The position numbers and the translations under genes were made by a program. DNA of 64,000 bases. Origin: Ureaplasma sp. ES3154-GEN (GTDB lineage Bacteria; Bacillota_I; Bacilli_A; Mycoplasmatales; Mycoplasmoidaceae). Position 1 is the first letter of the stretch. Each line of letters opens with the position of its first letter. The notes below the pieces were generated by a model that was not told where the DNA came from, did not search any database, and worked only from the letters and a program-made list of their open reading frames with translations. The stretch covers positions 1-64,000 of the forward strand of contig NZ_JAOXHM010000005.1 in assembly GCF_025780075.1 (NCBI RefSeq). The letters are read 5' to 3'. Shown one piece after another: positions 1 through 58,144 of the stretch.

Positions 1-3000
1 AAGTGTAAACTTAACCTTAACTTGGTTTCCGTTTCGTCCGCCATTAACATCCTCACTTGTAAAACTACTAATTGTCACCGGTTTTGTTGGTGTTGAAATA
101 ATTAGTTCAGGAGTATAAGTTATGTAATGTGAATTATCTAAAGTAACGTTTCTGCTTGTTGCTCAGTAAACACCTTTTAGTTTATATTTGCTATTACTCT
201 CTACCCCATTATTAGCGCTGAAACTAATCATATTTGTTGTTAATTGGTGCACATTGCTGTAAACAAAATTTGTTGTTTCGTGATCATTAGCATCTAGTTT
301 AACAAATTTTAATTTCACATATGTATTTGCTCATGAACCTATAATATTTGGAGCAGCATGAGCACCGGTGCTAAATCTCGCATTACCGATGAAATTATTT
401 ATAGCACTATTTCCTAATGATGCAGAATCAATTTGTAAAAAATTACCAAATTTGTTTTGTGTTGCATTTGAAATGTTAGAAACATGGAAAATATCATACT
501 TATTATCTCCCGTTTGGTTACCATATAAATATTCACCTACAAGTCGATGTGGTTTTCTTGTTAGTTTTATAGTTTCAATTGCATATTCCTGATTTAGATA
601 CATTAAACCATTACCATCACTTCGTTTATATGTTACTTCAATGTATTTCTGATTATTTGTATCTTTTCGCACAATTCCCATAATATTTTGAGCTTGTTCA
701 TTGCTTGAAATTTGTTTCATATAAACAGCAATTTGATCGGCATGATTAGGATCATTATCTTGTAGTGTTATTAAAACGTTATCTGGGTCATTAATATTGT
801 AACGAACTGTTAGGTAAGTGTTATTATTGTTAATAATGTGGTGATTTGAAACACTATGGAAGCTTGCGGTAATATGTGCAGGTAGCACAGTGAATTCAGA
901 TCCTACCCCATTAGCTATTTCCACATTCTGAGTTGTATTGTCCTTAGCTGGTTGGTCATATAATTCACCATCAAACCATACGAGTTTATCAAAAACATAT
1001 TCTTTGTTACCCGCAAAACTATTTGGACTTAATTCGAAACGAACGGTATTACCTGAACTTGGGACATCCCCTTGTTCAAACACAACTTTGTTGTTTGCGT
1101 TATTTTTTTCTCTATAAACCAATTTTAAGTGTTTATTGTTATATCTATTACCAGTTTTAGCAAGGGTAATTGTAACAGCTTGTTTAACACTTGGGTTAGC
1201 TTGTTTATCATAGTTAGGATATTGAACATTGATGTTAGTAATCCGTAAAGAGTCACTAGGGATTATTACATTTGTGTTGCTTGGTAAATTAACATTTAAA
1301 CCTGCAACTTCGTTAGTTTGTTTGCTTGTGCTTATACGGTTTAATGTGTATGTACTTCCCAAATCAAGATTAGTCATTGTGCCTGATAATTGGTTAGTTG
1401 TACTATTAAAGGTTAGCTCTACTGTATAGTCATGGTTCTCACCATTTTTTGTATAGTGTAATGAAACACGGTCGTTGTTTTTTAATGTATGGTGATCATT
1501 GTTAGTAACAGTTAAAACAATAGGTTGGTCATATTTGCTTGTTGTGCTATTGTAAACTGGTTGAACATTATTGTTAGAACGAGTAATACTGATTGGATCA
1601 GCATTAATTGTTATGTTTGCTTGGTTAGTTGCACTATTATGAAGTACAGTGGCATTAGTTACATTCCCCGTGTTAGTATCAACCACAAAACTATTGTTAT
1701 TTCCGTAGAAAATATTTACTAATTCATAAACACGGTTTGCTCTTGGGAATTTGGTATTTACAAAATTAAACGTGTGTGTTTGTGTTTGTAAATTAGGGTT
1801 TGTAATTTGGTTAGCATCACTAATAATGTATTTATAAGTTGTGCCTGTTGGCTCTTCTTTATATTTATAAACAACTTTTATGTATTTGTTATTCAATAAA
1901 CTACCTTGTTTTTGAATTCTAACAGCAACACTTGGTGTAGTTGTGTATCAGTTATATGTTGAATTTGTAACATTTACATTTGTAACTTTGTTATCAGCTG
2001 CGGGAATTATAAAGTTATTGTTACTATCATTTGGTATTGCAGCAAAAACAGGGTTTGCAAAATCAGCAGCTTTTTTATTTGTAGTTGTGATCGCTGCAAT
2101 TTTATATGTTGTCCCTAAATCTAAACCTGTTAAATTACCAGTAATTGTTTTTGTGCCATTATGTACAGAAACATTAAAGGTTGCTGTTTGCGGATCAGAA
2201 CCATCTTGCTTACTATAAGTGACACTAACTGTGTCGTTATTGCTTAATGAGTCATCAGAATCAGTTAATGTGTAACTTACGTTCGTCACATCAAATTTGT
2301 TTGATGTTTCATTGTATGTACTTGTTCCAGAACTATGACGGGTAAGAGTAATTGGGTTAGGAGCAATAACAATTGCTTGGTCAACTGTTGCTGGAGTAGC
2401 AACGAAGTGTGTATCATCTTCACCCACAGTATTATTAGTTGATCAGTAGAAACCTTTTAACTTATATTTGCGGTTGTTATGTAAATTTGTTGATGTGTTA
2501 AAACTTAAATTGTTTGCGCTTAGTTGTTTATTTTCACTATACACTACATCGTTTGATTCAGAACCATCGGTGTTTAAACGCACAAATTTTAATTTAGCGT
2601 GGATATTAGCATTCGCTCCAATGTTGTTTGTGAAAGCAACTGTTGTTGCAAAAGTTGGATTAACGCTTGCAGCCTGATTAGCCGGCACAGTGGCGCTATT
2701 AACTGCTAAATGGTTAGCAAATTTATCATCTCGGCTAACTGCAGCTGGTTTATCAAAGAAAACAAGCTTCTTAGCCTCATTGTCCTTATTAGTTGTTAAC
2801 ACATATGCGGGTTTTAGGTTAGCTGGTTTATTTACAAAACCAACTTCTGTAATTGCGTATTCTTTGTTTAACACTAAATTACTTAGATTGAAATCAAGCG
2901 TTTTAGTGCCGTTTGATGTACTTAAATTAGCTGTGTTGCTGGTAACTGGCGAATTTGCTGTTACATCACTGTATTTGTAAGTTAATTGGTTTACATCTGT

Positions 3001-6000
3001 TAATAAATTATCCGGATCAGATACACTATAACGAACCGTTAATGATGTTTGATTATTTGTTTGTAATGTGTTGTTTAGTGTACTTACATAAGTCAACACA
3101 ACTGGACGTGCAGCAACAGTAAATGTTCCTGGATTTTGTTCAGTAAATGAGTTTGGAACGGTCTGTGCGCTGCTAATTGCTGTATTATCATCAATTGTAT
3201 TTTCTGATCAAATAATCTTTTCTAATTTATAAATTTTATTTGTTTTTAGTTTATTTGAATCATTTGATGCTGATGTGTTTGCAGCCAATGTAAATGTTAA
3301 TGGGTTTGCCCCAACAACCTGTTCATTTGAAACGATTTTTTGCTGATCAGCTTCGTTTACATAAACAAGTCTTACTTTTTTATTATTGTAGAAAGTTCCT
3401 AGTGTTGTGAAATTAACCGTTACAGTTTGGTCTGTATAAACTGGTAAATCAGGATTTGCGACAGATATACTTGTTGCTGTAATTGTGTCGCGTGGAGTTT
3501 CGATGTTTGTTTTTGAACTTGCTGCAAAATTTAAAACAGGTGTAGTTAATTCTGCATTCGCTTTTTCTTTTGAAATACCAGTGAAATTATACGTTGTGCC
3601 TTGTTCTAATCCAACTAATTCACCACTTAGAACCCCGTCGTTATAAGTCAATTGAGCCGTTAATGTTTCACTTGAACCAGCTTTTTGATAACTTAAAGTT
3701 ACTGTTTGGTTGTTAACTAATGTATTGTCTGTGTTATTTGTCACATCAAACATTACCGCTTGTCTATAAGTACCATTATTATAAACAGGTGCAGGTGTGT
3801 CTTTTTGAGTTAATGTAATATTGTGGGCAGCGATATTAATATCTGCTCGTACACCAGCTTGTTTATCCATTAGAATTCCATTGGTAATTGCGCCAGTATT
3901 CTCATCCACATTAAAATCTGCATTATCACCATAATAAGCATCAACTAGTTCATATGTTCTGTTTCCAACTGTAAATTTATTCGCAGGGAAATTAAAGGTT
4001 AGAGATAGATTTTCCTGGTTAATTTGTGTTAATTGTGTCGCGTCACTAGTGATGTATTTATATTGCCCATCTGTATATGGTGTATCTTTGTATTTGTATA
4101 CAAGTTTGACATATTTATTGTCAAGCGTGTTGCCTTGTTTTTTCAGAGTTGCTGTTACCGTTAAACTTGCATTAGTGTTTGAATCAAAGTTTGCGCTTTG
4201 GACATTTACAGCTGTTAATTTATTAATAGGGCTAGGTATTACAAAAGGATTTTCAGGAACATCTGCAAATACAGGAGCTGCAAAGTTTGGTGCGTATGAG
4301 TCTTTAGCAACTGGAGTAATATCCGTTACTTTATATGTTGCCCCTAAATCTAAGCCAGTTAAGTTTAATGTTATTGTTTTTGTACCGTCTGAATTAACTG
4401 ACACAGAAGCGCTCAGCGTTTGGTTATCAGTAGTTCCTTCTTTAACATAACTAACAGTTACTTGGTCACCATTATTTAAACTATTGTCCGGATCAGTTAA
4501 TGTATAAACAACATTATTAATGTCGTATTTGTTCGTTTGTTCATTATACGTTTTTGTGCCATCACTACTACGTACAGTAACAATCGGAGTTGGTTTTGTA
4601 GTAAATGTTTTATCAACTTCTGCTAAACCATCTGCAATACTTAAGTTAACACGTTCACCTTCAGCAGCATCAGCTGTTGGTGCATAATAAGCCGATGTTA
4701 AAGTATATTTACGGTTTGCGTGTAAATCAGCTAAAGTACTTGTAATTTCTTCTGTTCCTTTTTGGTCATTTAATTGAACAGGCGTAGTTTTAATTTGAGC
4801 ACCTGCATTGTCCGTATAAACAAGAGTTAAGAATTTATTTTTTAGACCAGAACCATTTTTAACAACACTAAGATTTAATTCAACACTACTAGCGTTAGTT
4901 GCTCGATTGCTATCTAGATTAGCAACTGATAATCCGCTTAAATTACTTGTTAAAGTTTCTTGTTCGTCTTTTTTCTTTTGTTCCTCTTTTAAAGCATTAA
5001 TTTGTTCAGTTAATTCGTCCTTCACAGATTGTGGAACATTATTCGCGTTTGCAATTGCTGCTTCTGCTTGATTGATTGCTTCTTCTAAATCATCAGCAGA
5101 TGAATTTGTATCATTAGCAAGCGTCTGCGCAGCATTAACGTTAGTAACAGCTGCACGTAATTGTTCTAATGCACTCTTATCACTTGCTAATTTTTCCTTA
5201 ATTGCTATCGCTTCGGGTGAGTTGTTATCCGCAAGATTATTGTTTGCATTATCAATCGCAGCAATTTGTTGATTAATTTCATCAATAGTTGCAACTGGAT
5301 TCGTTTTACCAATTAAAGCAACAGCTTTTTTATCTTCAATATGACCTTGGGTAACTTTTAATAAATCATCCTTCTTTTTATTCAAAATGTTACTCAATGA
5401 TTGTGGAGAATCATTTAGATGCTTAGTTAAACCATTATCTGTTTCTTTGTTAATTTCGGCAATTGCAGCTTCTAATTCATCTTTAGATGTATTTGGATCA
5501 ATGATTTTTGCTTTCAAAGTGTTGTATTTATCATTAAACGCTTTTAAGCCTCTTAAATCATCAATCATCCCTGTTAATAATGGTTTAGTTGAATCACCTA
5601 AACCATTCTGATTAACATTGTTTTCTAAATTATTCTTAGCATCTTCTAATGCAGTAATATGGTTAGAAAGATCTGTGTTATTGTCTAGATTATCTTCTGT
5701 TAATGTGTTAACAAAGTTTCTTGCGTTTTCAAGAGCTTGTTTTGCTCGAATAACATTTTCAAGAGCCTGCTCGTTTTTTACAATCGCATCCTTAACAACT
5801 GGTGGTAAATCAATGCCATTATTTTTAGCATTAACTAACGCATTTTTTGCACTTGTTAGTGCGTCTGCTGTTGAATTAGCATCATTTGCAATTGTAACCG
5901 CATTTGCAAGCGCTTCTGCGGCTTCTTTGTATTGACGCAATTGTTTTTGATCTTCTAATAATTTTTCTTTGACACTGCTTAGCAACGGATTACTATTATT

Positions 6001-9000
6001 TGAATTAGCTTGTAAATTAGAAATTAATTGAGCCACTTTTTCTAGTTCTTGTTCAATTACATTCACAGGTTGTAAATTAGTTTGAGTAATAACATCCTGA
6101 GCATGTTTATGACCAACTGAACTGTCTTTTAATAAATCTAAAACATCCCGTTTAGCTTCAAGATCTCTAACTAGGTGTGAAGGAACTAATAACGGATTTT
6201 TTAAAGCGTTTAAATTATCTGTCAAGGCAGTAATTGCTGCTTGTGCATCTTGAAGTTTTTGATCTGTTGGTTCTGTTTCAAATGCTTGTGTTTTAGTTAA
6301 TGCATCCTCATATTTACCATTTGCTTCTTCAAGTTTAGTTAATTTTGTTAGTAAATCTTCTAGATCTTGGCGTGTTTCAGCACCAACGTCATCTTGTTCT
6401 AAAGCGGCTTTTGCAGCAGTGACTTTGTTCTTCGCATCTACAATCTGTTGTTTTGTTGGAATTTGATCATTTGCTCATAGAGCTTTAGTATCAGCAATTG
6501 TTTCTTTACCAGTTTTAACTTTTTCTAAATAATCAATTTTTGTTTTTCAAGCATCTAGATCCTTTTGTAAAAGAACATTAGCATTGTTATCTTTTTCATA
6601 CTCTGCTTTTAAAGGATTTAGTTTTTCCAATAAATCATCTGCTGTTTTAGTTGGGTTTTTAGCAATCGCTTTCGCATCTTCATAAAGTTCATGTAGTTTG
6701 TTAATAGCATCAAGTTTTCTTTCATCTTCTTTTAATGCATTTAATAATGTTGTTTTTAAAACTTCATCCTGAATTGAATCGATGGCTTGGATTCGTTCAC
6801 GTACGCGTGCTAAAAGATCAGCAGCCTGCGCAGTATCAGTTGGATCTGCTAAATACGTTTTAGCCTCATTATGGGTTACTTTTGCAAGTTGTAATGCATC
6901 CAATTGGTCTTTTAATGTTTCTAGACGCTCGCTAACTGTTTCTGGTACATTGGTATTAACAACTGTTGGAATTGTATTTGCATATGCATTTATTTTATTT
7001 GTGCTTTGATCCGGATTAGCATCTAGATCATTTAATGCTTCTATAGCCTCTTTGAATTTTGTATTTGATGTTTCAAGGGCTTCAAGTTGTTTTTTCGTTT
7101 TATTAAGAGCAGTTAATGTTGGTTCTTTATAAGGATTATCATTATCAACTGAATTAATAGCTGCTTGAACTTTTGTTTTTTCTGATGTAAATGGATTATC
7201 GGCAGTTGTAGTTAATGGGGTGTTGGCGATAACTGTTTGGGCCGCTTCATCAACAGCTTTTGCACTTGCAATATTTTTTAACTGTGCAAGTTTATTTGTA
7301 AATTCATTTCTTACTGGTTCTGATAATTGGTTACTGTTTGTTGTGAGTGCATTTTCAAAAGCATTAAGCTTGTCATTTAAAATAGCTGCTGATGTATTTG
7401 CATCTTCAGTACTTGTTACTGTTTCATCAAATTTATCAACTACTGTTTGCAATGCTTTTAATTTCTCTTTATCAGCATTTAATTGTTCTTTAATAACGCT
7501 TGTTAATTCAAGGTTATTTGCTGCATCTAGTGTAGGGATTAATGCGTCAATTGCAGCAATACGTTCAGCAACCTGGCCGCTTGTTGCGTGAGGTGTTTTG
7601 TTAATCACATTATTTGATTTAATGTGTTCTTCTTTTGCATCGCGAACCGTTGTTCAATCATTTTTTATTTTGTTTAAGTTAGCTAAATCAGCTTCATTAA
7701 CATCAGCTTCTTGTGCATCGATTATTGATGCAGCAAGTTTAGTAATTGCATCATTTGTATTTGCTAAGTCACTTGTTAAGGCAGTATTATCAGTTTTATT
7801 ATCAGGCAAATTTTTGACAGTGTTTAAATTATCATCACGAACTTTCAAGACATTAGCAATAGCTTGTAGTTTAGGGCGTAAAACTGTCAATTGTTCCTTG
7901 ATTGGTTGACCAATTAATGGATCGTTTAACAATGCTTCAACTGCCGGAGTGCTATTAGCAGCAGGTTTGCCGATTTGTTCATCAACCTTACTGATTGCTT
8001 CTACTAAATTGTCATATGTTGGTAACGGATTAGGAGCTAATAAATTGTTTGCATCTTCACTAACTTTTTTAGCAGCAACAACTTTAGCAACTTTGTCTTT
8101 AAAATTAGTTAGACCATTTATAATTTTCGGATCTAAATCATTTGCAGCTGCAATCGCGTTAGCAAATGTACCATTTAAACCTTCAGTTACTGTCGAGTTG
8201 TCAGCAATGTTATTTGCTGATACAACAGCACTATTCATTTTGTCTAATAAATCTTTATAAGTTGTTAGTTTTGTTCGATCTTGATCAAGTTTTGTTTTGA
8301 TAGCATCTGTGTGGTTATCATTAGCAATGCTATCTAAAACCGGTTGTAGAGTATCTAATCACTCATTAACTTTTGTTACAGATGAATTAAGAGTCGGATC
8401 TTGTTGCAAGATAGTAACTGCTTGCTTGTGTTTTTCATAAGCGTCTCGTAAACGTCTTAATACTTCAACTTCTTCTTTTAATTTAGCTAATACTGGTTCA
8501 CTTACGCCAGCATCACGAGCGTCTGCAAATTTATCCAATAAACCGTCAATTACTTGGTTTTTATTGTCTAATGAAACATTTTCACCTTGAACTGTTGCAC
8601 GTGCATTTTCAATTTCAGTATATAAAGTTTTAAGACCTTGTAATTTAGTAATTGTTGTTTGTAACTTGCTAGTAAATGCTGTTTTTAGCTCTTCATCCAG
8701 AGCGATACCATCGTTTGTCGAAACTGTTTCTTTGGCAGGGTTTAAAATAGCTAATTGCGCATCAATTTGCTCGTTTGTAATTAATGGGTTTGTGTTATCT
8801 GCTAAAACATTTGCATTTTTATTTTTAGTTTTTGCTATCTTGATTTCATCAAGACCTGCTTTTTTCTTGTCTCAAACCGCTTTAGTCAAATTAGTTAAAG
8901 CTTTGGAATTATCATCAGCAAAATTTGCAACTATCGCTTCATTTAATGCCTGAATCAAAGGAGTTAATTCGCTTGCATCCTGACTATCGTCTAACGCACT

Positions 9001-12000
9001 AGTTTGTGCAGCATTGTATTTCGCTCACAAGTCATTAAAAGCTGTTAGCTTTGTTTTTAAGTCATTTAAATTATTCTTAACTTGCGTTCTTTCATTTGGC
9101 AAAATTTTCTTGATTTCATGAATCTTATTTAATGCCTCATCAACCTTGTTGATTTCTCGAGTAATATCACGATTAGAAGCAATATTAGGGTTATTTTGTT
9201 CCAGTACTGCTTTCGCTTTTTTATAAACACGTTGTGCTTCAACTAATAAATTTAATTCAACCGTTTCTTTATCTAATGAATCGATAACTGGGCTTGGAAC
9301 ACCCAAATCATCAGCCGTTTTAATTAAAGTTTCCAGATTATCAACTGCAGTACCTTTTTCATCAAGGGTTTTAGTTTTATCTGCTACAATTTCTTTCACA
9401 TTTACTAGTGTAGCTTCGATTTCCTTAAGTTTTTCTAAACGTGCCAGTGTTTGTGTTAATTTTTCTTTAGTCGGTTCCCCCAAAATAGAAGAGTTTAAAT
9501 TAGTAATTTGTTGATTAACTTTTCCAATCTCAGTTTCTAATTCCGCAACTGTCGCTCGTGGATCAATCTTGGCAAGAACCTCATTAGCTTGCTCATCAAC
9601 AGATTTAGCTGTTTTAATTTTTTCTAATTCTTCTTTTTTGTTGTTTAACGCTTCTTTTAAAGTATCTGGTAAAGTTGTGCCAGCTAATAATGAAGTTGCT
9701 AGAGTATCAATTTTAGTTTGCAATTCATCGCTTGTTGAAGTTGGCGAATTAGCTACTGTTTGAGCTGTTTTTAAATTATCTAAGATTGTTTTTAATTTAG
9801 CTAGTTGATCCTTATCAGTAGTTAATTTATTACGAATATCATCATTCTTAATATCTGCATCTAATAGAGCAATTGTCGGATCAACTTCATCAAATAACGG
9901 ATCAAAATGATCAACTACCCGAGTGATAGTTTGTGGATTTTCAAGTTTCGCTGATGTATCTGTAATTAAATTAGTAATTCTCTTATGAAGATCATAAGCA
10001 TTATTTAAGTCTTTTAGCTCATCACGCGCTAGAACGAGTTTGTTAATAACCAGTTCAGTAATACCTGCATCACGAGCAGCGTCTATTTTTGAGGTTAACG
10101 CTTCAATTAACGCAGTATTTCCCGCCTTATCAGTAGTACCATTACGAATACTATTTTCTGCTGTGTTTCGCGCGTCAACAGCTTGTTTTAAAGCATCAAC
10201 TTTCGGAAGTAAACCATTAATTTTTTCCAATTGATTTAAACCAACAGAGTTGTTTGCTAATGCTGTTTGCTGTGCTTCTAAATCTGATTTAATAGTCCCT
10301 AAATCAGCTGCAGTTGCAACATTTGGTTCATTTAAACCAATTGCGTTTTCTGCAGTTTCAGTTTTTTGTTTTGCTGTATAAACCTTAGTTAATTCATCAT
10401 GTTTATTTGTTCAGTCTCTACGCTCTTCATCGGTTAACGTATCATCATTTGTATACGCTGCAACAAATGGATCAATTTTTTCTTTTAAAGATTCAGCTGT
10501 TGAATTTGCTTGTATAGCTACTTTTTTAGCAGCATCATATAACGATGAAATATTTGTGATTTTTTCAATCTTTTCTTTATCAGCAAGAAGTTTTGCTTTT
10601 AATTCAGTTGCTGTTGGATTGACCAAATCTGCTAAGCCATCAATTTCTGCTATTGCAGCATCAATTTCTGCTATTTTTGCAAGGAAAGTTGATTTTGACG
10701 GACGAGGATTGCTTGTTAATAATGGATTAACTGTATTGTGCACCTTACGTGCATTATCTAGTGCATCAAATGCGTTAGTTAAATTATCTAAATTATCTTT
10801 TTGAACTTGATATTGTCCAAATGATAAATTAAGTTTCAGTTTATTTAACACATCTTTTGCATCACTTAAGGCGTTGTTTAATTCTGTTATCTTCTCTAAT
10901 ATGTCAGCATCTGATTTAACCGGATCAGTTCCTTCATCTGGACGCGTTCCACTAGTTACTGCTTCTTTTGCGGCAGTAACTTTATCATTAATTTGTTTTA
11001 ATGATTCAAGAAGTTGTTTTGTTTTATCTAAAATCGCTTTGTTTTCTAAACCAACATTATCACTATTTAATGTTGTTTTTGCATTATCAATTTTAGTAAT
11101 TTCTGCTGTTAGTACATCATTTGTAGGAATAGGAACTGTTGTAGCAACAACTAAAGCTGCTTCATTGATTGTCTTTGCAGATTTAACAGTTTCTAAGTAA
11201 TTTTTCAGTGTATTATAATGTTGTTTCACATTATCGGGAATATGTGTTCCAGCAGCTATTTTTTCAGTTAAAGTATTAATCGCCTCTTGCAAAGTTTCAG
11301 CTTTGCTAATCGGGTCATTTGCTAATGCTAACCCCGCTTGATAGCTATCATAAATAGCCTCATATTCAGCAAGTTTAGCTAGATCAGCACGCAATTGTTC
11401 TTTAACTGTATCGTTAATACTATCAGTATCTAGTTTAGCAAGAGATGTTGTTAATTCATCTTTATATGTATTAATTTCATTTTTTGATAAAACGGGATTT
11501 ACATTTTCAAAATTTCGATTAAAATTATGATCAACTTTTTGCGCTTCTTTTAAGTTTTCGAAACGTTGTAAATTTATTTTTCAAGCATTAACAACATCTT
11601 CGTTAATTCCAGTTGCTTCAGCTGCAGTTATAGCGTTATTAAACGCAATAATATTTGCACTATCCTTGTCTTGTTTTGCCTCAAAACTTGAACCTTTGGG
11701 AATATTAGTGTTCAGCAAACCATTTTTTGCAACAGCAAGTGCGTCGTTCGTTTTCTTGTAAGCTTTAGTTTTATCAGTTGTTGAAACCAATTTATTTACT
11801 AATCAATCCTTTAACTCTGGATCTAAATCTAAATCTTCACTTGCACGTACTGTAGTTGTGTGTTGCTCCATATCTGTAATTGATGGAGGAACAACTGTCT
11901 CTTCAGTCACAAATGGGTTGTGTTGAACAATAATATTTGCTCCTGTTTTTTCTACATCCCGTGCATCACTTGCGATTTTTAACGCTTCTTTACGTTTGTT

Positions 12001-14094
12001 TCATTGGGCTATAACGTCTTGTGGTAAGTTACTTGTTTGGTTGGTAATTGCTGTAGCTAATGAATTAATTAATTGATCAGTATTTTCTTTATTAAATTCA
12101 TCTACCTGAATGCTTGCCTTCGCTGTATTATATTGATTTCAGAAATCAACAAGTTGATTTAATTGTGCCGCATCAGCCATTAATTTTTTTAATGAATCGG
12201 CCTGGTCTGGATTATCTTTGATTGCCTCGACAGCATTATTAACCTTGTCTAATAAATTATTTAAAACATCAAAAGGACTAATTGAATTATTGATTGCTTT
12301 TTGTGCATCATTATGCAATTGTTCAAGATCAACAAGAGAATTTAAAATCGCTAGACGTTTATCTAATGCTGTTTTGACATCTTCTGTGATTGCTAGTTTT
12401 TTAGCTGCATTAATTGCAGAAATATATTGTTCAATTTGAGCAAGTTTTTCCGTCTTAGTCAATGTTTTGTCTTGAACAACTGGTAGTAATTGATGGTAAA
12501 TGTTATCAGCATTAGCTAGTGCTGATAATTCGTTAATTGTTTCTTCTAATACACTAACATTCGAAGAACCAACATCTTGATTAGACAATAATTCTTTTGC
12601 TTTTTCTACTAATTGTTTTTGGTTTAAAAGATCATTTGCAGAGGCAAGAGGTTCATAAGCTTGAGCTGATATTTGAGCTAATTCATTCGCCTTTTTCGCT
12701 TTAACAACATTGTTAAATGTCTCAATTAAATCAGCATATTTCTTTTCAGTTAAAGCATCAAATTTATTTGCTAAATCATTAACTTCAGTTGCATAATCAT
12801 CAGTTAATGTTTCTAAATTTGTACTTAATGATGTAGGATCATCAGCTAATAAAAGAGCGTTTTTATATAATTCTTGAATTTTTTGAGCTTGATGAATTAA
12901 AGATAACTGATCAACTAAATCTTGTTTTCCCACTGTTTCATTTGTTAATTTTTCAACATATTGATCAGCAAGATTTACAATTGCCACTGACGCTTCCTTG
13001 TCTAATGGATTATCAATAATAGACTTTTTCGCACGCTCCACAATGTCATTGACAGGTGATACTAATTTATCTAATAATGCTTGTTTTAAAACTGGATTAT
13101 TGTTTTCAGCAGTTTCAGCAAACGCTTTATCTAATAATGTTTTTGCTTGTTTTGGATCATTATTTGTGTTTGCATCTAATACACTTTGCAGATTATCTAA
13201 ACGCTTAATATAATCTTGTTTACGGAATTTATTTTCTTCCGTTTCAATTGCCGTTCGTGCGGCATTGATTAATTCCTGCAACTCTGTATTTGGTTTCTTA
13301 TTGATAAAACCTTCTTCTGCTGCTTTAACCTTCTTATAAGCATCACTAATTTCAGGATACAACATTTCCTTCATTTTGTCTAAACGCTTATATAAGTTAC
13401 TATCTGGATCGTTTAAATCATTCACCGCTGTATAAGCATCTTTTAGTGTTTTAACTAACGCAGGATCTTTTGGATCTTTTTTGTATCCTTGCTCAACTGC
13501 CTCCACTAATTTTAATGCGTCATTGTACGCTTTAACATCTTCAAGAATATCGTTTAAATATTTCTTAGCAGCAGTGTACTTTTCATCACTCAATTCATCA
13601 ACTAAATCTTGTGCAAGATCAATTTTGTTCTTTAATGTTTTTGACGAAGCGCGATCGTTTTTTGTGTATTTTAATGCGGCCATAACTGCATCACGGGCAG
13701 CTAAATAATCACGGTTATCATCAATGATTTTCTGAAGAATATCGTTTTGATCAACTTTCATTTGTGATAACGGTAAATCAGCAACACTTTTAATTGCATC
13801 TGTTAATTGTTGATCAAAAACTTTTGGATTAATATTACCTTCATCAGATGTGATTTGAGCAATTAAAACATTTTTTAATGATTCAAATTCATTTAATTCT
13901 GTTTTTAGTTGGTCTAAATTTCCTTGATTATTGCTAATTTGATCTTTTAATTCAGCAATTTTCGCCATTACCTCTGGTAATGTTCAAAAATGTTTTCCTG
14001 TGTTTGTTTTACATTGAGTTACTGCAATAGTAGCCGTGATTGCGGCCGCACTAGCAAGTAACCCAGTAATAACAAGACCCTTTTTCTTTTTCAT
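1..14094 (-). CDS. Giant repetitive surface protein, 3' end beyond the window
   Basis: A single reading frame, with TGA as Trp, runs from the ATG at 14094 to the left edge without TAA or TAG: at least 4,698 residues, C-terminus unseen. Residues 1-28 are a Lys-rich start, a hydrophobic stretch and Cys28 in the context A-V-T-Q-C. This is a loose lipobox, since Gln at -1 is unusual, so a lipid anchor or an uncleaved membrane anchor are both possible. Residues about 40-3045 are helical repeats of about 70 residues that recur as variants of 'ANDxxSTADxLxxxI...PxxVKxxL' and 'PTxxELxxEIxKVDxxI'. From about 3050 onward come two alternating beta-domain types, one with 'LTDPDNSLxNxDxVTVSY...LTGLDLGTTYKV', the other with 'NKYVKLVYKYK...NRTYELVxxYYG'; they resemble the DUF1410-type repeats of Ureaplasma surface proteins. 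A weak AAAGAA ribosome site lies 9 bases before the ATG. Adhesin or variable antigen is inferred from form only. Confidence 0.85.
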
Positions 14095-14156
14095 CGTTTA
14101 ATTCTTTCAGATAAATGATATTATCATTAAATTTATATATTTTTAATTTTGTATTC

Positions 14157-45509: not shown

Positions 45510-47105
45510 TTATTTGGCGTTTTTAATTGTCTCTAAATCGATTGTTCACACATTTTTTGGTGTGTCAAGATCGTTGGTTGGTTCATAACGAGTTGCACTA
45601 TTGAACGCACGTGAAGTTTCAACGACTTTACTAAATACTTTTGCTTGGTCAGAAACTTCTCCACTCTTATCAGCAGCGTGAGCGTGTCTTCCACGAATAA
45701 TAATATTTACACCTAGTTTTTCGATTTCTGGTAAATTTTTCGTCGAGAAAACATTATCTCCAGTTAATTCTGTTACATTTTTTAAATATTTTTCTTTTCA
45801 ATCAATTAAATGCAATGCACCTTGATAAGTTTCATGTCCTGAAGTTGATAAGTTTGAAGATACTGTTAGATCTGGTTTTAAACTTAAAGCAAATAATTGG
45901 TCTAGAGACTGTGATGATGTTGCTCAAATTTTAATATCTGTGTTGTTTTCACGCATATATTTCTTAAACACACCTTTAGCATTGTCGTTTAGTTTATATT
46001 TTCCTTCTGATACCATAACTTTATCAGATTCATTATATAAACTCATAGGTGGAACTTCTTTTCAGATTTTCATTAATTCTGATTTTGATTTTAATGCATC
46101 AGCGGTTGTCTTGTCCATCCCAAATGCACGAGATAATTTATCCAAATTGTTTAATAATCCAATTAAACCGTAGTTAGAATATCAAGTATCAGACATTGGT
46201 GTGATGAAAAAGTTATTATCTCTATTCGCAGCTGTTTTTAATAATCGAGGTGCTGTAAAATCACTATATCCTGCAATAGTGTTTGCAAATGTTTCCATTT
46301 TTGCCGTATCACGAGTATAAGTTGTTCCAGATACAGTATACCCATCTTTGTAGCCTGCATCATATCACATATAAACAACTTTATCAGCAGTTTTCATGAA
46401 TGCTTGGTCAATTTTTTGAGGTAAAGAATTTCTAGCAGCAGCATCTGAACCTTCAGCAATTGTATCTCCATAAGAGAATCAAGGATCTAATAAATTAAAC
46501 GCTGATTCATTGCTTGTATTAGGAACTGGGAAATACATTCCCAAGCCTGGTAATTCTGCATTTGTTGGTTTTGCATATAGCAATGGGAAGGTTGAAGGTT
46601 GGAAGATTGCATAATTATTAGCTCATTCAGAGCTCAATGTAGTTAATCCATTCTCTCCCCCAAAGTTTACACCAACTAGAACAGTCGTTTTTGCATCACG
46701 CAAACCTTTTCAGAATGCTGAATCTGCATACATTTTAATATCTTTTTTTAATGCTGCAATTAATTTTTCTGCTTGTGCACTAAATGTTGCTGCATATTTA
46801 CCTTCTTTAATCAGCGGAGCAAAAGTAGTTGATTTTGATAGATCAATTGCTTCATCTAATTGTTTTGCAGTATTTCTTAATTGAGCAATCGGAGAATTTC
46901 ATCATGTGTTGTAAACACTTACAATTTCTCCTTCATCCTCCATTTGTTTATTTAATAAACGGTTAATGTACTTTGCATCAACTTGAACGTTAGATTGTTT
47001 GCTGTTAATTGCTGGTTTACAACTTGCAGCAATAGCACTAAATGTCGCAACAGCAGCTAGTGACCCAAAAGTACTTCATAAAATTTTTTTCGTTTTTTTA
47101 GTCAT
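45510..47105 (-). CDS. Uncharacterised lipoprotein, possible binding protein
   Basis: 531 residues from the ATG at 47105 (GAAAGGAA before it) to the TAA at 45510, open only with TGA as Trp (about ten such codons). The signal peptide ends in lipobox I-A-A-S-C, Cys29. The mature protein is globular and rich in Trp, Tyr and Asp, quite unlike the low-complexity lipoproteins nearby. Segments such as 'VVYMWYDAGYKDGY', 'NNFFITPMSDTWYS' and 'GVNIIIRGRHAHAAD' suggest a folded, two-lobed binding protein, perhaps for a metal complex or another solute. This is a guess from composition; I do not recognise the family. It is monocistronic. Confidence 0.75.
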
Positions 47106-50008: not shown

Positions 50009-50974
50009 TTAACGTTTGGTTTTGTCAAACGGTTTCCCCACATTTTTGGGTGCAGTAGAATATTTTGCAAATGCAACCATTCCGATTAGAGTAATTGCAT
50101 ATGGAATTGTTTTGATCAAATGGGTATAGTGTTCGTTTTTCACTAGACCAGGAATAATGTTTTTAATACTTGCAAAGACAATTGACATTACAAGAATTAA
50201 AGGTATTTTTCAACCACCAGCGATTAAGATTGCAAGCGATAGGAAACCGATCCCATCTACTGAACCATAAAATCCAGTCCCTTTCTGATACATAAACAAT
50301 CCGCCAGCAACTCCTGCAATTACACTTGAAATCGAAATTGCAATTCATTGGTATTTATAAACATTAATCCCTTGGGCATCAGCCGCATTAGGATTTTCTC
50401 CAATTGCATATAAACGAAGTCCAAATGGTGTTTTTTTCATCATAAAATAAAACGCCATTACGATTAAAATAATTGCGATTAAAATAATTAAGCCACTGAA
50501 ATAAAACACCGGTTGGCCATTTGTATTTGTAATTTCCAAAAAACCACGATAATCACTGGTCAAACTTGTTTTTGCATTATTGGTAATCGCTTTAGCAATC
50601 GGATTGGAAACAAAAGTGGCAATCCCTGATGCAAGTAAGTTGATCGCAGTCCCTGCGATAATTTGATTCGTTTTTAATTTAATTGTTAAAAAACCAAATA
50701 ATAAACCCATAGGAATTGTCGCGATCCCTGCGACAATTAACGGTAAAATAAGGCTATATTCAAAGTTTTTTTGATCATTCAAGACCCCTGCACTGTTTTT
50801 CATACTAAATGCTACAATACTAAAAAATAGTGCTCCAAAAATCATTTGTCCGTTAATAGAAATATTAGCAATTCCTACACGTTCGCTAAAATAACCACTC
50901 AAGGCACCTAAAGCAAAAATCCCAATAAATAAGACAAGGGTTGTTAAGTTAAAATCAATTGCAGTATATGACAT
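50009..50974 (-). CDS. Nucleoside-type ABC importer permease, second subunit
   Basis: 321 residues, with about eight to ten spans, of the branched-chain/ribose permease superfamily (PF02653 type). 'ALGALSGYFSERVGIANISINGQM' near the start and 'GLRLYAIGENPNAADAQGINV' late in the protein are typical of the nucleoside importers (RnsD / NupQ type). Two TGA codons are read as Trp, which extends the protein past 50345. The ATG at 50974 overlaps the stop of the other permease by 1 base (TAATG). Confidence 0.88.
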
Positions 50975-53148
50975 TAGATAACAGCCCTTTCAATAATTTG
51001 TTGTTGATCTACATTCAATGCTTGTTCATATGAAGTTTGCAATCAAGTTAATAGTAGTTGATTTTGCTTGTTATCTAGTTTAATTTGTTTAATTTTATTT
51101 AAGCTAGTTTCATATGTTTGTTTAATTTTTTGAGTAGATGACAAACGCAGATGTTTGTGCATATATTTTTTTGCTTCTTGAATTGTTTTATCTTCTTGAT
51201 TCAATAACTCTTGATATGTATTGTAATTCTTCAAATAAATATTTCACACTTGTTTAAAGTGTGGATCTCGATTGCTCATTATATTTGCAATATGAACTCA
51301 TTGTTCATGAGTTATTTTCTGTTTATAAACAAGTAATTCGTAAACTCCCTTAACATCTTCATCCATTGCATTGATATAAATAGTTGGGTCAGTTTGTTCT
51401 TGCAACAATACTCAGTCATCATTGCTCATATTTTTTTGATTAATTAGTTTTTGGTATGTTGAATTTAAAAAAATATTTTTATAAGAGCTTCGGTTCTCTT
51501 CATTAATTAATCAATCAACACTTGGGTTTTTACGAAGATAAGCTAAATATTCATTGTAATCAAAACCAATTTTTTCAGCATATCGCTTAAGGTTTTGGAA
51601 AGCAAATTTTAATAAATTTTGTTGATCTAAGTAAATTTTATCTCTTAAATTACTTAGTTTTTTTGATTCTCTTAATGATAAACGGTGGTGAAAAATCTTA
51701 GCTTTGTGTAAAATTCTTTGTTCCGGAAAGAACACTTGATTCACTTTTTGAATTAACAGATGTTTACGCAATTGTTTATAGTTTTTTTCAACAGCATTAA
51801 CATATGCTAAATACTCTTGGTTATATAAAGCATTATAGTATTGATTAATTAATTGCTGTAAATATCGCACACGTTGTGGGTTATCTGTTTTTGTCGTATT
51901 AATACGAACTGCTTTTAGAGCATCCTTATGTGCTTTTTTTAGTCGAACATAAGTCCCATTATATGTAGAAATAATACTGTTCAATTCGTTTTCATAATGT
52001 TTATAGTCCTCAAGACCTTTTTTAGCATAAATCCATTTAAACATTAAATAGATTGGTGAAATTTTTTCAAATAAAACAAACATTGCTGCACCAATCATAA
52101 TGAATGAAATAATTAAACCGCTTACTTCTGAAGGGAATGACCCTCCTAAATAGTCAGCAGAAAATTGTAACATTCCAACAAGGAAAGAAATTGGAATAAC
52201 AGCAAGCGGGTGCACTAATGCAATTAACCCAATTGCAATACCATCAAATCCCTCATTAGGTAGGATGTCTACGTTTTCTTTAATCGCAATCGCTTGTCCT
52301 TGACTATTAGCAGTATATAAGACAAATCCTAAAATCCCCGCAATCATTCCAGAAATTGCAAATGTAGCAATTGCGATTGTTTTTGTCTTATAACCAGCAT
52401 AGCGCGAAGCTTCAAACGAGCGACCAACTGATAGAACTTTTTGACCAAAAACAGTAAACCGTAATAAAATGAAAACAATCACTGCAACTAAAACAAAAAT
52501 TCCTAGTGCAAATAAATAACCATATCCTGGTGCTAAACCATCTAAAGTGAAGTTTCACTGAATAGTGGCTGAACCTTGGGGAATAGAAGCGTTTTGAGCA
52601 TATAGTCCGTTATTTGATTTTAAAATTGTATATTTTGCAAGGAAATAAATCATTCAGTTTAGTAAAATTGATGACACTACTTCGTTAATTTTAAGAAAGA
52701 TTTTTAATATTCCAATAAAAACAGTAACTAAAGCACCTGCTGCTGCGGCAATAATGAACAACAAGATTTGCCCAACGACAATTGGAACATTAAGATGACT
52801 AATCTGCAAATGCCGGACGACAACAATCATAATTAGACCTGCAGCAAGCATCTGCCCAGAAATTCCGATATTAAATAAACCTGCTTTAAAAGCAAAAATA
52901 AATGAGAGAGCTGCAATCCCTGCAACCGCTACTTTATTTAAATAAATATCGTATGATCCAACTCATCTAGTAAATAATCGGTGGATAAAATCTTTAGGAT
53001 CGTATCCTAAAATACCGACAAAAATAGTAACTGCAATAATCGCGATAAAAATTGCAAAAATAGTTGATAAAGCTTTTTTGTAATTACTTTTCGCTGGCAA
53101 AGTAGAGAAAACCTTATGCCATGCGAGTTTGCGAGCGTATTTATGCAT
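50974..53148 (-). CDS. Nucleoside-type ABC importer permease with long C-terminal tail
   Basis: 724 residues. Residues about 25-365 are the membrane part of a PF02653-type permease, with 'SVGRSFEASRYAGYKTKTIAIATFAISGMIAG' (seen around 'ASRYAGY') and 'NEGFDGIAIGLIALVHPLAV', typical of RnsC / NupP. Relatives end here. This protein continues for about 355 hydrophilic, Lys, Gln, Tyr and Asn-rich residues predicted to be helical and cytoplasmic, to the TAA at 50974. No stop or frameshift divides the two parts. The start at 53148 is chosen because AGGTGAA lies before it and it overlaps the ATPase stop by 8 bases. TGA codons are Trp. Confidence 0.88.
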
Positions 53149-54703
53149 TGTGTTCACCTGCCATAAGTTCTCCAATTTTTTGTTTTGTCATTTCTGTTTT
53201 GTCTCCTAAACCAATGAAATGTCCATCATGAATAACTGCAATTGTGTCAGCAAGCGCAAGAATTTCATCTAATTCGTAAGATATCAATAAAACAGCATTA
53301 TTTTTTTGTTTTTCTAATAAAACTTGTTCGTGGATAAATTCAATAGCCCCTAAATCAAGTCCTCTTGTAGGTTGCACCATCATAATGAGATTATGCTCAC
53401 GTTGAATTTCTCGACCAACAATTAATTTTTGTTGATTTCCCCCACTTAATGCACGAGCTAAATTATCCCCAATTGTTGTTCCACGTACATCGTATTTGTT
53501 AATAATTTCAATTGCTTTTTCAACAATTTTGTTGCTATTGATGAATCCGGAATGGCTATAAGGTTTTTTGTTAATTTCTTGCAAAACCGTATTCATCATA
53601 ATTGAATCATCTAAAATTAAACCATGTTTGTGGCGATCTTCTGGGATATGAGATAAACCCTTTAGATAACGTTTAGCAATTGATTCTTTAGTTATATCAT
53701 TATTGTTTAAAATAATTTTAGCGCCAGGATTAGCGTTATTCAAGCCTGCGATAGTTAAAGCTAATTGGCTTTGTCCATTACCCTCTACACCAGCGATTGC
53801 AAAGACCTCACCAGCATGGACTTGAAAATTCAATGCTTTTGTCTGATCCTTGCTTGTTGGTTTTAACTGGCGATAAATGTCAAGATTGTGTACATCTAAA
53901 ATTACTGGTTTATCTGTTCTGTCATAAACTTGGTCGTTCTTAACAGCAACAAGTTTCCGACCAACCATTAATTCAGCCATTTCTGCAATACTTTTATCTT
54001 TAACTTCAAAACGATCAATAAATTGGCCGCGACGAATAATAGTTGCGCTATCTGCAACCTGTTTAATTTCATTGAATTTATGGGTAATAATAACGATTGT
54101 TTTTCCGTCTTTTTTGAAATCCAAAAGCATTTGTAAGAAAGATGCAATTTCATCCTCAGATAAAACCGCAGTTGGTTCATCAAAAATTAAAATATCGATA
54201 TCTTTATACAATAATTTTAAAATTTCTGTTTTTTGTTGTTGACCAACTGTTAAGTTGCTAATTTTCTTTTTCAGATCTAATTTTAATTTATATGATGAAA
54301 TAATACTAGTTAGTTTGCGAGCAATTTTTCGTCGAGGAATAACGTTTGTAATTGCTGCTTCTTCACTTCCTAAAATAATATTATCTAATACACTTAAAGT
54401 ATCAATCAGTTTAAAGTGCTGATGCACCATACCGATACCGTATTTACTTGCATCTTTAGCAGATGCGAAATTAATGGTTTCTCCATTAATTTTAATAGAA
54501 CCTGAATCCTGTTTGTAAATACCAAAAAGGATCGACATCAATGTTGATTTTCCTGCGCCATTTTCACCAATGATTGCATGAATTTCGTTCTTTTTTACAA
54601 ATAAATCAACATCTTTGTTTGCAACGATTTTACCATTTAAAAACGTTTTGGTAATTTTATGCATCTCAATTGCAAAAACGGTTTGGTTATTGTTGTTTTG
54701 CAT
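53141..54703 (-). CDS. Nucleoside-type ABC importer ATPase with two domains
   Basis: 520 residues, two fused nucleotide-binding domains as in sugar and nucleoside importers (MglA, RnsB / NupO). Domain 1 has Walker A 'GENGAGKSTLMSIL', a signature 'LTVGQQQKTEIL' and Walker B 'ILIFDEPTAVL'. Domain 2 has the usual degenerate P-loop 'GVEGNGQSQL', signature 'LSGGNQQKLIVG' and 'MMVQPTRGLDLGA'. It drives import through the two permeases that follow, and takes substrate from the lipoprotein gene 49 bases upstream. Confidence 0.93.
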   Translation of the reverse strand: MQNNNNQTVFAIEMHKITKTFLNGKIVANKDVDLFVKKNEIHAIIGENGAGKSTLMSILFGIYKQDSGSIKINGETINFASAKDASKYGIGMVHQHFKLIDTLSVLDNIILGSEEAAITNVIPRRKIARKLTSIISSYKLKLDLKKKISNLTVGQQQKTEILKLLYKDIDILIFDEPTAVLSEDEIASFLQMLLDFKKDGKTIVIITHKFNEIKQVADSATIIRRGQFIDRFEVKDKSIAEMAELMVGRKLVAVKNDQVYDRTDKPVILDVHNLDIYRQLKPTSKDQTKALNFQVHAGEVFAIAGVEGNGQSQLALTIAGLNNANPGAKIILNNNDITKESIAKRYLKGLSHIPEDRHKHGLILDDSIMMNTVLQEINKKPYSHSGFINSNKIVEKAIEIINKYDVRGTTIGDNLARALSGGNQQKLIVGREIQREHNLIMMVQPTRGLDLGAIEFIHEQVLLEKQKNNAVLLISYELDEILALADTIAVIHDGHFIGLGDKTEMTKQKIGELMAGEHNA

Positions 54704-54752: not shown

Positions 54753-56192
54753 CTAGTTACCAGTTGGTTTGGGAATATTAATTCCTTTTGAACTATAAAA
54801 AGCTTTAAGTCCTTCATAGCTTGTTTGGTTAAATGATTGATCATCAATTCGTGATCCCGCATTTCCTAGTGCTAATTTAACAAGTTTTGCTTTTTCTTCA
54901 TCGGTATTTGCAGCATTTCATACTTCTGCAAATTTAATTGATGTTTTTTTGTTTCCACCAATTTTTAAAAAACTTGTTTCATTGTATTTATATTCCATTG
55001 TCTTATTGTTAGCACCAGTATAAGTATTGGTTGTTGTTAAATTATTAAATTCGTTTGAGTTTTTTAATTCATCAATTGCTGACGCATAGTCTGTTACTGC
55101 TTTGCCAGCTAATTTTAATGCATCAATTAAATATTGTTGACCAGGTGTTGATACTCCTACTAAGGGTTGGTTGTTAAAATAAGATTTTTCGTCAAAACCA
55201 ACTAATGAGTGTGTACCCAAACGGAATTGGTTATCTTCAGCTTTTGCAGTTAATGCAGTAGTTTTTATTGCTCCTTCGATTAATGCCTGCACTGCTAAAT
55301 CTAATCTTTTTGTGATCGAAAACAATATTGCTTTTCCGTTGTTAACACTAGTAAAATTTGTTGTTTTATTTAGCGCAGCGTTGTCTTCCTGTGGTACGTC
55401 AACCCCAATTACTAAAATTGGACGCGTTGTGTTTGTGGAAGCAGTATTTACAGCATCAATTGTTTGGGCACCTGATACCGGTAAAATTAAATCAGCACCA
55501 TCTGAAACTAAACTACTTAAAATTGTTGCAACTTTTCCTTCACCCGGTCCTCATGCACCACTTTCAAAAGATTCACCAGCTGTTGCTTGGTCAACCTCAA
55601 CCCAAGTTTTTGTCACATTTTTATCGTTTGCTTGTGGAACTTGTTTGTTTGCTAATAAAGTGTTAGCATACTTCACACCTTCTTGAAAACCTTTAATAAA
55701 ACTTAAAGTTGAAGCGTAGCCTTGCCCAACAAACCCACCTCATTTAAGAGTGTTTTTAGTTTTCATAAACGCAGCTTGGTTGGCGTTTAGGTAATAAGCG
55801 GCCGCAATTCCTGTAGCAAATCCACCGTGGTCTGTTCTAAATTCAACAGAAGCTACACGTTCTTGGTTTTTTTCACCCGTATATTTTGCGTCAATAAAAC
55901 CAACAACCGCGTTGTTTGCTAATCCGTCTTTTTGACCCATTGTTTGGTTTAAAGCATCAATAAAACTAAAACCGGTCGTGATCAAGAAGCGCCCACCATC
56001 ATCAATTAAAGATTTAAATGTTGCTGCAAAATCAGATGTATCTCCGCCTTGTGTCGCTCTAAAGAAACTATTTAATTCATATTTTGGTTTTTGTTTTGTA
56101 CAACTTACAGCAATTGCTGTGAGAGCCAAAAAACTAGTTATTATTCCTAAAAAACCAAAAAAGATTTTTTTCCTAAACTGGAATTTTTTCAT
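54753..56192 (-). CDS. BMP-family substrate-binding lipoprotein (copy 2)
   Basis: 479 residues. The signal peptide ends in lipobox I-A-V-S-C, Cys31. The body belongs to the basic membrane protein family (Med / BmpA / RnsA type) that binds nucleosides: 'GFVDAK/IDAKYTGEKN', 'ASVEFRTDHGGFATGIAAAYY' and 'WGGFVGQGYASTLSFIKGFQEGVKYA' are recognisable parts. TGA codons are Trp. It sits 49 bases before the ATPase and has an AGAAGGAAA ribosome site, so it is the binding subunit of this importer. Part of it is almost identical in DNA to the next gene upstream. Confidence 0.9.
55356..55860. repeat. Near-identical block shared by the two BMP genes (copy in 54753-56192)
   Basis: This interval matches 57236-57740 almost base for base at a fixed offset of 1,880, including silent positions, while the DNA on both sides is clearly diverged. 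Direct repeat, same orientation. Confidence 0.85.
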
Positions 56193-56252
56193 TACTTTTT
56201 CCTTCTAAAATCTAGTTATAAAATTGAATATAAAAAATTTATTCGAAATAAT

Positions 56253-56258
56253 ATTATA
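56253..56258 (-). promoter_or_regulatory. -10 box of the ABC importer operon
   Basis: TATAAT on the minus strand, 61 bases before the ATG at 56192, between the upstream terminator and the lipoprotein gene. No good -35 box. The interval 56193-56629 holds only this and the hairpin at 56486. Confidence 0.45.
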
Positions 56259-56485
56259 TAACAATAATATTCCACTTTTTAAAATAATGGATTGATGTTT
56301 TATGCATATTTTTTGGTACTAAAAATGAATGAAAAGTCAAGAAAAAATATTTTGAATAACTTTTTAAGAAATATAAAGATATTTAGGATAATTGGTAAGT
56401 TTTACTAATTCTATACTTATTTGCTTTTAAATAAGAAACTACTTTAATTAATTTATTTCTTAAATAAAAGAGTAAATATTAAGAT

Positions 56486-56523
56486 AAAGAGATGTGCAAC
56501 TTTATGTCGTTGCGCATCTCTTT
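56486..56523 (-). terminator. Terminator between the two BMP lipoprotein genes
   Basis: A 15-bp stem (AAAGAGATGTGCAAC with GTTGCGCATCTCTTT, one G-U pair) with an 8-base loop, about 107 bases past the stop at 56630. It separates the first lipoprotein from the importer operon. Confidence 0.75.
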
Positions 56524-56629
56524 ACAATTTGTATCATTAATAGAATACTATTAATTTTTATAATTGAAATTAAATTTTAGTTTGCAACTATTTAGCGTTT
56601 CAAAACTCTTACGTTAGTAAATAATAAAT

Positions 56630-58144
56630 TTAGTTACCAGTTGGTTTTGGAAGAATAATTCCGTTTGCTTTATAGAAAGCTCTAAGACCCTCATATGTTG
56701 TTTGGTTGAATGATTGATCATCAATTCTTGAACCAGCATCACCAAGAGCTAATTTAACAAGTTTTGCTTTTTCATCTTTGTTTGCAGCTGAATTTCACAC
56801 AGTAGCAAAAGCTGTTGATGAAGTTCTAGAAGATGAGTTGTCAAGGAAAGAAGTTTCATTGAAAGTGTATTCTTTTGAGACTTGATTAGCACCTGTATAT
56901 GTGCTAGTTGTTGCCAATTCGTTATATTGAGATGAGTTTTGAATTTCACGAATTGCAGAAACGTAATCAGTCACTGTTGATTTACCAGCTAATTTTAATG
57001 CATCAATTAAATATTGTTGCCCAGCTTTTGAAACACCAACAAGTGGTTGTCCGTTGTAATATGATTTTTCGTCAAAACCAACTAATGAGTGTGTTCCCAA
57101 ACGGAATTGGTTATCTTCAGCTTTTGCAGTCAATGCAGTAGTTTTTGTGGCATTATCAATTAAAGCTTGTGCAGCTAAATCTACACGTTTAGTAATTGAA
57201 AATAAAACAGATTTTCCACCATTAAGATCCGCAAAGTTTGTTGTTTTATTTAGCGCAGCGTTGTCTTCCTGTGGTACGTCAACCCCAATTACTAAAATTG
57301 GACGCGTTGTGTTTGTAGAAGCAGTATTTACAGCATCAATTGTTTGTCCACCAGCTACTGGTAGAATTAAATCAGCACCATCTGAAACTAAACTACTTAA
57401 AATTGTTGCAACTTTTCCTTCACCCGGTCCTCATGCACCGCTTTCAAAAGATTCACCAGCTGTTGCTTGGCCAACCTGAACTCAAGTTTTTGTCACATTT
57501 TTATCGTTTGCTTGTGGAACTTGTTTGTTTGCTAATAAAGTGTTAGCATACTTCACACCTTCTTGAAAACCTTTAATAAAACTTAAAGTTGAAGCGTAGC
57601 CTTGCCCAACAAACCCACCTCATTTAAGAGTGCTTTTAGTTTTCATAAACGCAGCTTGGTTGGCGTTTAGGTAATAAGCGGCCGCAATTCCTGTAGCAAA
57701 TCCACCGTGATCTGATCTAAATTCAACAGAAGCTACACGATCCTTGTTTGCTTCCCCATTATATTTAGAGTCAACAAAACCGACAACTGTGTTCTTTGCC
57801 AATCCCTCTTTTTTACCCATCGTTTCGCTTAATGGCCCAGTAAAACTAAAACCAGTCGTAATTAAATAACGTGCACCATCATCGATTAATGAGTTAAATG
57901 TTGCTTGGAAAGCAGCTGTGTCACTTCCGGCAGTTGCTCTATAAAATGTATTTAAAACATAAGGAGAAACTTCTGCTTGAGTGTTCCCTTTATCGTTATT
58001 TGTTTTGCCTGATTCTCCACCTTTTTTTGTATCATTTTTATCGTCTTTAGCACAACTAGCAGCAACTGCTGCAACTGCTAATAAAGCAGCAGAAGCGCCA
58101 AATAAGCCAAATAAAATTTTTTTGTTTAATTTTAATTTTTTCAT
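56630..58144 (-). CDS. BMP-family substrate-binding lipoprotein (copy 1)
   Basis: 504 residues. The signal peptide ends in lipobox V-A-A-S-C, Cys31, followed by a 25-residue Asp, Lys, Gly and Asn-rich linker absent from the other copy. The body is again the BMP nucleoside-binding type: 'ATFNSLIDDGARYLITTGFSF', 'GFVDSKYNGEAN' and 'ASVEFRSDHGGFATGIAAAYY' are seen. It has its own promoter and terminator, so it can be made without the importer. It may supply the same permease with another substrate, or a second route for the same one. TGA codons are Trp. Confidence 0.9.
57236..57740. repeat. Near-identical block shared by the two BMP genes (copy in 56630-58144)
   Basis: Matches 55356-55860. See that entry for offset and edges. 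The sharp fall in identity on both sides points to gene conversion rather than a recent whole-gene duplication. Confidence 0.85.

Follow-up and report, generated by a model that had tools for sequence, protein, structure and literature searches.

Introduction

The PF02608 family of nucleoside-binding lipoproteins includes PnrA/TmpC of T. pallidum (2fqw), BmpD of B. burgdorferi (6shu), PnrA of S. pneumoniae (6ya3) and P48 of M. agalactiae; in P48 the nucleoside pocket comprises D78, F81, N82, D166, F274, G299, D323 and K341 (PMC12892991). Among type-I binding proteins, a natural circular permutation has been described in TpMglB-2 (Tp0684), a glucose-binding lipoprotein called “Type Ic”, in which three N-lobe strands have been moved and a fourth hinge crossing has been made (PMC4990184). 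The authors of that study reasoned that strain from an N-terminal tether near ligand-binding residues is perhaps a disadvantage; in their view the protein may have adapted to anchoring by way of this topology (PMC4990184).

Here we describe two adjacent lipoprotein genes, A and B, in a stretch of 64,000 nucleotides of mollicute DNA (hereafter, the window). They resemble PnrA, BmpD and P48 in sequence family, predicted two-lobe fold, pocket residues, lipoprotein signal and an operon with one ATPase and two permeases, but differ from them in that the strand-helix unit carrying the DxxFN motif is C-terminal and the tether enters before strand 2. With TpMglB-2 they share a natural circular permutation in a lipid-tethered type-I binding protein with both termini in the same lobe, whereas the family differs (PnrA/Bmp rather than glucose-binding) and just the first strand-helix unit, of about 45 residues, has been moved. 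No report of circularly permuted PnrA/Bmp proteins or mycoplasma lipoproteins was found in the open-licence literature searched. The reading that we favour, with a probability of roughly 0.86, is that A and B are permuted lipoproteins of a nucleoside ABC importer, that the permutation arose once, and that the core of the two genes was later homogenised by gene conversion.

Results

The locus and its transporter operon

The draft source genome (822,731 bases) consists of 11 contigs, of which contig 7 contains the window, and the DNA is of mollicute type, because long frames are open only when TGA is read as Trp. Gene A (54753–56192, minus strand, 479 aa) and gene B (56630–58144, minus strand, 504 aa) are open frames under table 4 and the sole two copies detected in the source genome. 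Both proteins match PF02608 (76.5 and 87.9 bits; cut-off 24.1), and both carry a mycoplasma lipoprotein signal (NF045726) above the NCBIfam cut-off. The two genes precede, on the same strand, the partner ABC ATPase (53141–54703, 520 aa, two nucleotide-binding domains, RbsA/B6-type ATPase models) and two permeases recognised from open frames and permease models, namely permease 1 (50974–53175, 733 aa in its longest frame, with a long C-terminal extension) and permease 2 (50009–51046, 345 aa in its longest frame); this lipoprotein-ATPase-permease order is kept in relatives. A and B are thus taken as tandem paralogues that would supply a nucleoside ABC importer of PnrA type with its substrate-binding lipoproteins.

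Some further features of the window were observed. In permease 1, the permease models match residues 35–369 of 733, followed by about 350 charged, helix-like residues. The 437-bp gap between A and B contains a near-perfect, terminator-like hairpin of 16 bp (56485–56524), and therefore B and A may be transcribed separately. Another lipoprotein gene (45510–47105, minus strand, 531 aa) has the same Vmc-like signal and no other NCBIfam match. Finally, an open frame of 4699 codons (1–14097, minus strand), which extends past the window start, begins in a lipoprotein-like manner (signal, then Cys) and continues with long helical repeats and then repeated beta-type modules; judged by these features, it is predicted to be a giant surface protein.

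Order of the canonical segments in A and B

The hallmark D-x-SFNQ..yeG, which lies near the N-terminus of canonical proteins, here sits close to the C-terminus, at residue 451 (of 479) in A and residue 476 (of 504) in B. When the two proteins were compared with a profile for which the only input was canonical lipoproteins encoded in the corresponding operon of other bacteria, the parts tiled the profile almost exactly, but in swapped order. In A, residues 43–310 (55263–56066, minus strand) correspond to profile positions 73–291 and residues 428–472 (54777–54911, minus strand), which hold strand 1, DxxFN and helix 1, to positions 26–70; in B, residues 68–335 (57140–57943, minus strand) correspond to positions 73–292 and residues 453–496 (56657–56788, minus strand) to positions 26–69. 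The swapped order was found in all 23 full-length permuted proteins checked, against the forward order in canonical relatives. A and B do not follow the N-to-C order of PF02608, and are therefore permuted relatives rather than standard members of that family. The C-terminal part of each protein, as read from its sequence, is the relocated canonical N-terminal segment, a feature that a preliminary description of the locus, concerned with the similarity between the two genes, had missed.

Several comparisons agree with this reading. The Pfam Bmp match of B covers only model positions 46–154 of 301, while its last 60 residues alone match positions 10–39 with 15.7 bits (18.2 bits for A). Taken alone, the body of B reaches 66.1 bits; once the C-terminal 70 residues are moved to the front, the score is 84.8 bits, with a continuous match over positions 10–154. 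Against T. pallidum PnrA, residues 469–495 of B match residues 12–37 and residues 133–319 match residues 98–275, again in swapped order, as is also the case when a permuted-order profile is matched to S. pneumoniae PnrA. In an AlphaFold model of B, of moderate confidence (pLDDT 72.7, pTM 0.73), the moved segment forms a strand (463–467) and a helix (479–493); the input consisted of the window and related-locus sequences, and the model was aided by an alignment that places canonical N-terminal fragments on the C-terminus. In an earlier model, from a sparser alignment, the pLDDT was 64.6 and confidence in the moved loop was low. The best PDB matches of the model are BmpD and PnrA (TM 0.52–0.54 by target length; PnrA 0.54), in a Foldseek comparison, a method by which the permutation cannot be followed. 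The sequence order and this moderate-confidence model together place A and B among the circularly permuted type-I folds of the Type Ic kind, although the cut point differs from that of TpMglB-2, where the first three N-lobe strands have moved, against about 45 residues (profile 26–70) here.

Since the moved segment comprises no more than about 45 aa and each of its single matches is weak (6–27 bits), one might suppose that no permutation took place, the N-terminal unit having been lost and the C-terminal DxSFNQ being unrelated or independently gained. Against this, the segment completes the body profile exactly (26–70, then 73 onwards) in 23 of 23 proteins, it occurs in 15 genomes and in one clade, and the pocket residues of DxxFN are part of it, D476 being unchanged in each of the 19 proteins aligned; we regard loss and independent gain as improbable, and a circular permutation as the reading to retain.

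Distribution of the permuted order

Judged by eye from match coordinates, the order was permuted in 15 and canonical in 47 of the 95 family genomes examined, with no exception. Of the 15, ten make up the whole sample of the window's genus, four come from another genus and the last one bears the label of a third; in all 15 the matches are colinear across nearly the whole permuted profile, while in the other 47 the C-terminal part of the query matches upstream of the body. Among 296 genomes of the class, a colinear match was present only in the window's own genome. A related-locus search of genome contigs with protein B returned no loci, and the same search with the partner ATPase returned canonical relatives, which served as controls.

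In a tree of the body columns, which leaves out the moved segment, a single branch (bootstrap 88, SH-aLRT 96) separates 22 permuted proteins from the canonical proteins of mollicutes and Bacillota. A single change of order is recovered in 86% of the bootstrap trees, so that support for the clade is good but below maximal; a tree of the neighbouring ATPase was too weakly resolved to add much. The permutation most likely had one origin, in the ancestor of one mollicute clade. Two irregularities were seen among these genomes. The protein on G029:C81 (L048) is permuted and that on G011:C3 (L015) canonical, though the genomes are labelled as the same genus, a mismatch that may reflect transfer, hidden paralogy or contamination; and the contig ends of G003:C11 and G003:C35 probably hold the two parts of one more permuted Bmp copy.

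The near-identical block shared by A and B

The preliminary description had proposed that a block of about 500 bases, given as 55356–55860 and 57236–57740, was copied between the two genes, and these coordinates are right within 2 bases. The block lies at 55357–55858 in A and at 57237–57738 in B (both minus strand; offset 1880), with 14 mismatches over 502 nt (97.2% identity). By codon alignment, dS is 0.866 on the 5′ side, 0.079 inside the block (A residues 112–279) and 0.878 on the 3′ side, an 11-fold drop, while nucleotide identity is 74, 97 and 74% before, inside and after the block, and protein identity is 63% on the 5′ side, 96% in the block and 72% on the 3′ side. The edges are sharp at both ends. 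The even identity along the whole genes that would speak against copying was thus not seen, and the near-identity extends to silent sites as had been claimed. The divergence of the ends described earlier stands for the signal peptides and for the middle-to-late parts, whereas the last 55 or so residues, which contain a conserved motif, are similar again.

When identical and different silent codons were shuffled 20,000 times, the longest observed run of identical codons for the same amino acid (74) was never reached (shuffles: maximum 58, mean 20.7); with all sites considered, the longest identical stretch is 150 nt, against a shuffle maximum of 73. Gene conversion among tandem paralogues within a genome is a textbook process, and the A/B pair fits it with nothing unusual: the block has sharp edges, and its silent sites are homogenised between the neighbouring copies to an extent beyond chance. 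Gene conversion between tandem paralogues is well supported here, because an 11-fold fall of silent divergence with sharp edges cannot be produced by selection at the protein level. That the block was kept by such selection with no copying, as could be imagined from the core being generally the best-conserved part of the family, has to face the fall of dS from 0.87 to 0.08, the absence of such a block from other paralogue pairs of the family and the lack of any Rfam family match in the block, where an overlapping RNA constraint was looked for, and it can be given next to no weight. A misassembly, conceivable in a draft of 11 contigs, is hardly more credible, as 14 differences, some of them clustered, are preserved between copies lying both inside one 125.6-kb contig, and a similar pattern is found in an unrelated assembly (G034; see below).

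The copying left a structured pattern. Two divergent islands interrupt the block in gene A, one at residues 197–201 (55590–55602, minus strand; 3 mismatches in 12 nt) and one at residues 237–242 (55467–55484, minus strand; 6 mismatches in 18 nt), the latter adjoining the pocket glycine; they carry nine of the 14 mismatches, and block dS falls to 0.037 when they are left out. Downstream of the block, near-identity returns over a second, short tract of some 72 nt (96% identity; dS 0.12 over 24 codons), at 55197–55268 in gene A (residues 309–332, minus strand), with its partner at 57077–57148 in gene B (minus strand). Because of the two islands and this second tract, several overlapping conversions are the simplest reading, and probably the correct one. 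As to the direction of copying, no indication came from the GC content of block and flanks, whether overall or at third positions, and comparison of the islands with relatives gave mixed answers; the pair is known from one genome, the nearest homologues elsewhere among the genomes compared being at most 44% identical.

Mycoplasmas use recombination for variation, and A and B are both surface lipoproteins, so that a programme of antigenic variation could be imagined in which one of the genes serves as donor for the other. The exchange between A and B homogenises, however; the copied part is the conserved core and the variable ends are spared, and both genes are full-length, with no further copy or cassette found in the genome, all of which makes such a programme very unlikely, if somewhat less so than an assembly error. 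Conversion without a programmed role in variation remains our reading of the block.

Conversion in another genus of the family

A comparable case was found in G034, of another genus of the same family, in which three tandem copies have a homogenised core, with 704 nt identical across the three. Between copies 1 and 3 the 704 identical nt cover residues 120–354, against a longest shuffle run of 229, with a 5′ flank of 82–93% identity; the block starts at the homologue of residue 118 of A, a few codons from the start of the A/B block. Conversion of the core has therefore occurred at least twice, G034 being a separate instance whose block has almost the same 5′ edge. Such conversion is not universal, as no sharp block was found in the paralogue pairs of G009, G003, G005, G004, G001, G353, G396 and G401. 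The last three are of other genera of the family and have three (G353:C7, L190), two (G396:C3, L191) and two (G401:C2, L192) tandem canonical Bmp genes. Relative to conversion as generally known, the finding that the same core is converted in a second genus adds modestly.

Predicted nucleoside pocket and position of the block

By alignment, the counterparts in B of the eight P48 pocket residues are, in the order given above, D476, F479, N480, D125, W238, G265, D289 and K319, those of D166, F274 and G299 being a reading of the alignments. The pocket residues expected of PF02608 are thus present, with F274 replaced by W238, and nucleoside binding would be retained by A and B, to judge from these residues. 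Three of the eight (D476, F479 and N480, of DxxFN) are contributed by the moved segment. By an approximate mapping, the block spans from the VASVxF strand to just past the GVD motif, which corresponds to the long segment of the C-domain, so that, roughly, one lobe is common to A and B and most of their differences fall in the other. Among the predicted ligand residues of B, W238, G265 and D289 are inside the block, and D125, K319, D476, F479 and N480 outside.

It had also been suggested that the block keeps the contact with the transporter the same while the ends diverge for substrate or antigen. This purpose finds no support, because the block corresponds to about one lobe and predicted ligand residues stand on both sides of its limits; local high similarity may simply ease recombination there.

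Discussion

We propose the following history. The canonical opening strand-helix unit with DxxFN has become the last unit of the protein, and the lipidated N-terminal tether now lies directly before the second strand. The route was probably the fusion of tandem copies, which are common in the family, followed by trimming at both ends. Closure of the two lobes around a nucleoside has most probably been kept in both proteins. Much later than the permutation, homologous recombination between A and B would have homogenised a core of about 500 bp, corresponding to roughly one lobe, probably in more than one event and presumably by way of recombination machinery of the cell.

The rearrangement would shift the lipid anchor away from the ligand-contacting loop, and the new tether point may have been of benefit. 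The reasoning put forward for TpMglB-2 fits A and B because canonical PnrA carries its ligand loop after the first strand, a short way behind the lipid anchor, and we extend it to them as a hypothesis, by analogy. A broader proposal is that this is a second, independent permutation of a type-I binding lipoprotein, fixed in its clade because tethering beside the ligand loop is costly, in which tandem copies gave rise to the permutation through their fusion and continue to homogenise one lobe through recurrent conversion. We put this forward tentatively and consider it rather doubtful as a whole; if true, A and B together with TpMglB-2 would be convergent evidence that membrane anchoring drives the permutation of binding proteins.

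The clade-wide permutation of PnrA/Bmp proteins is the more valuable result, the conversion being ordinary, but well shown and recurring at the same core in another genus. There is also a warning in it, since profile searches truncate permuted proteins, the Pfam match spanning about 125 of the 504 residues of B. It is rare to find a natural circular permutation for which sister genera of one family have the canonical form, with both forms encoded in the same operon, and for which a single origin can be inferred; the clade of A and B is therefore a tractable case in which to ask how a permutation gets fixed and whether membrane tethering favours it.
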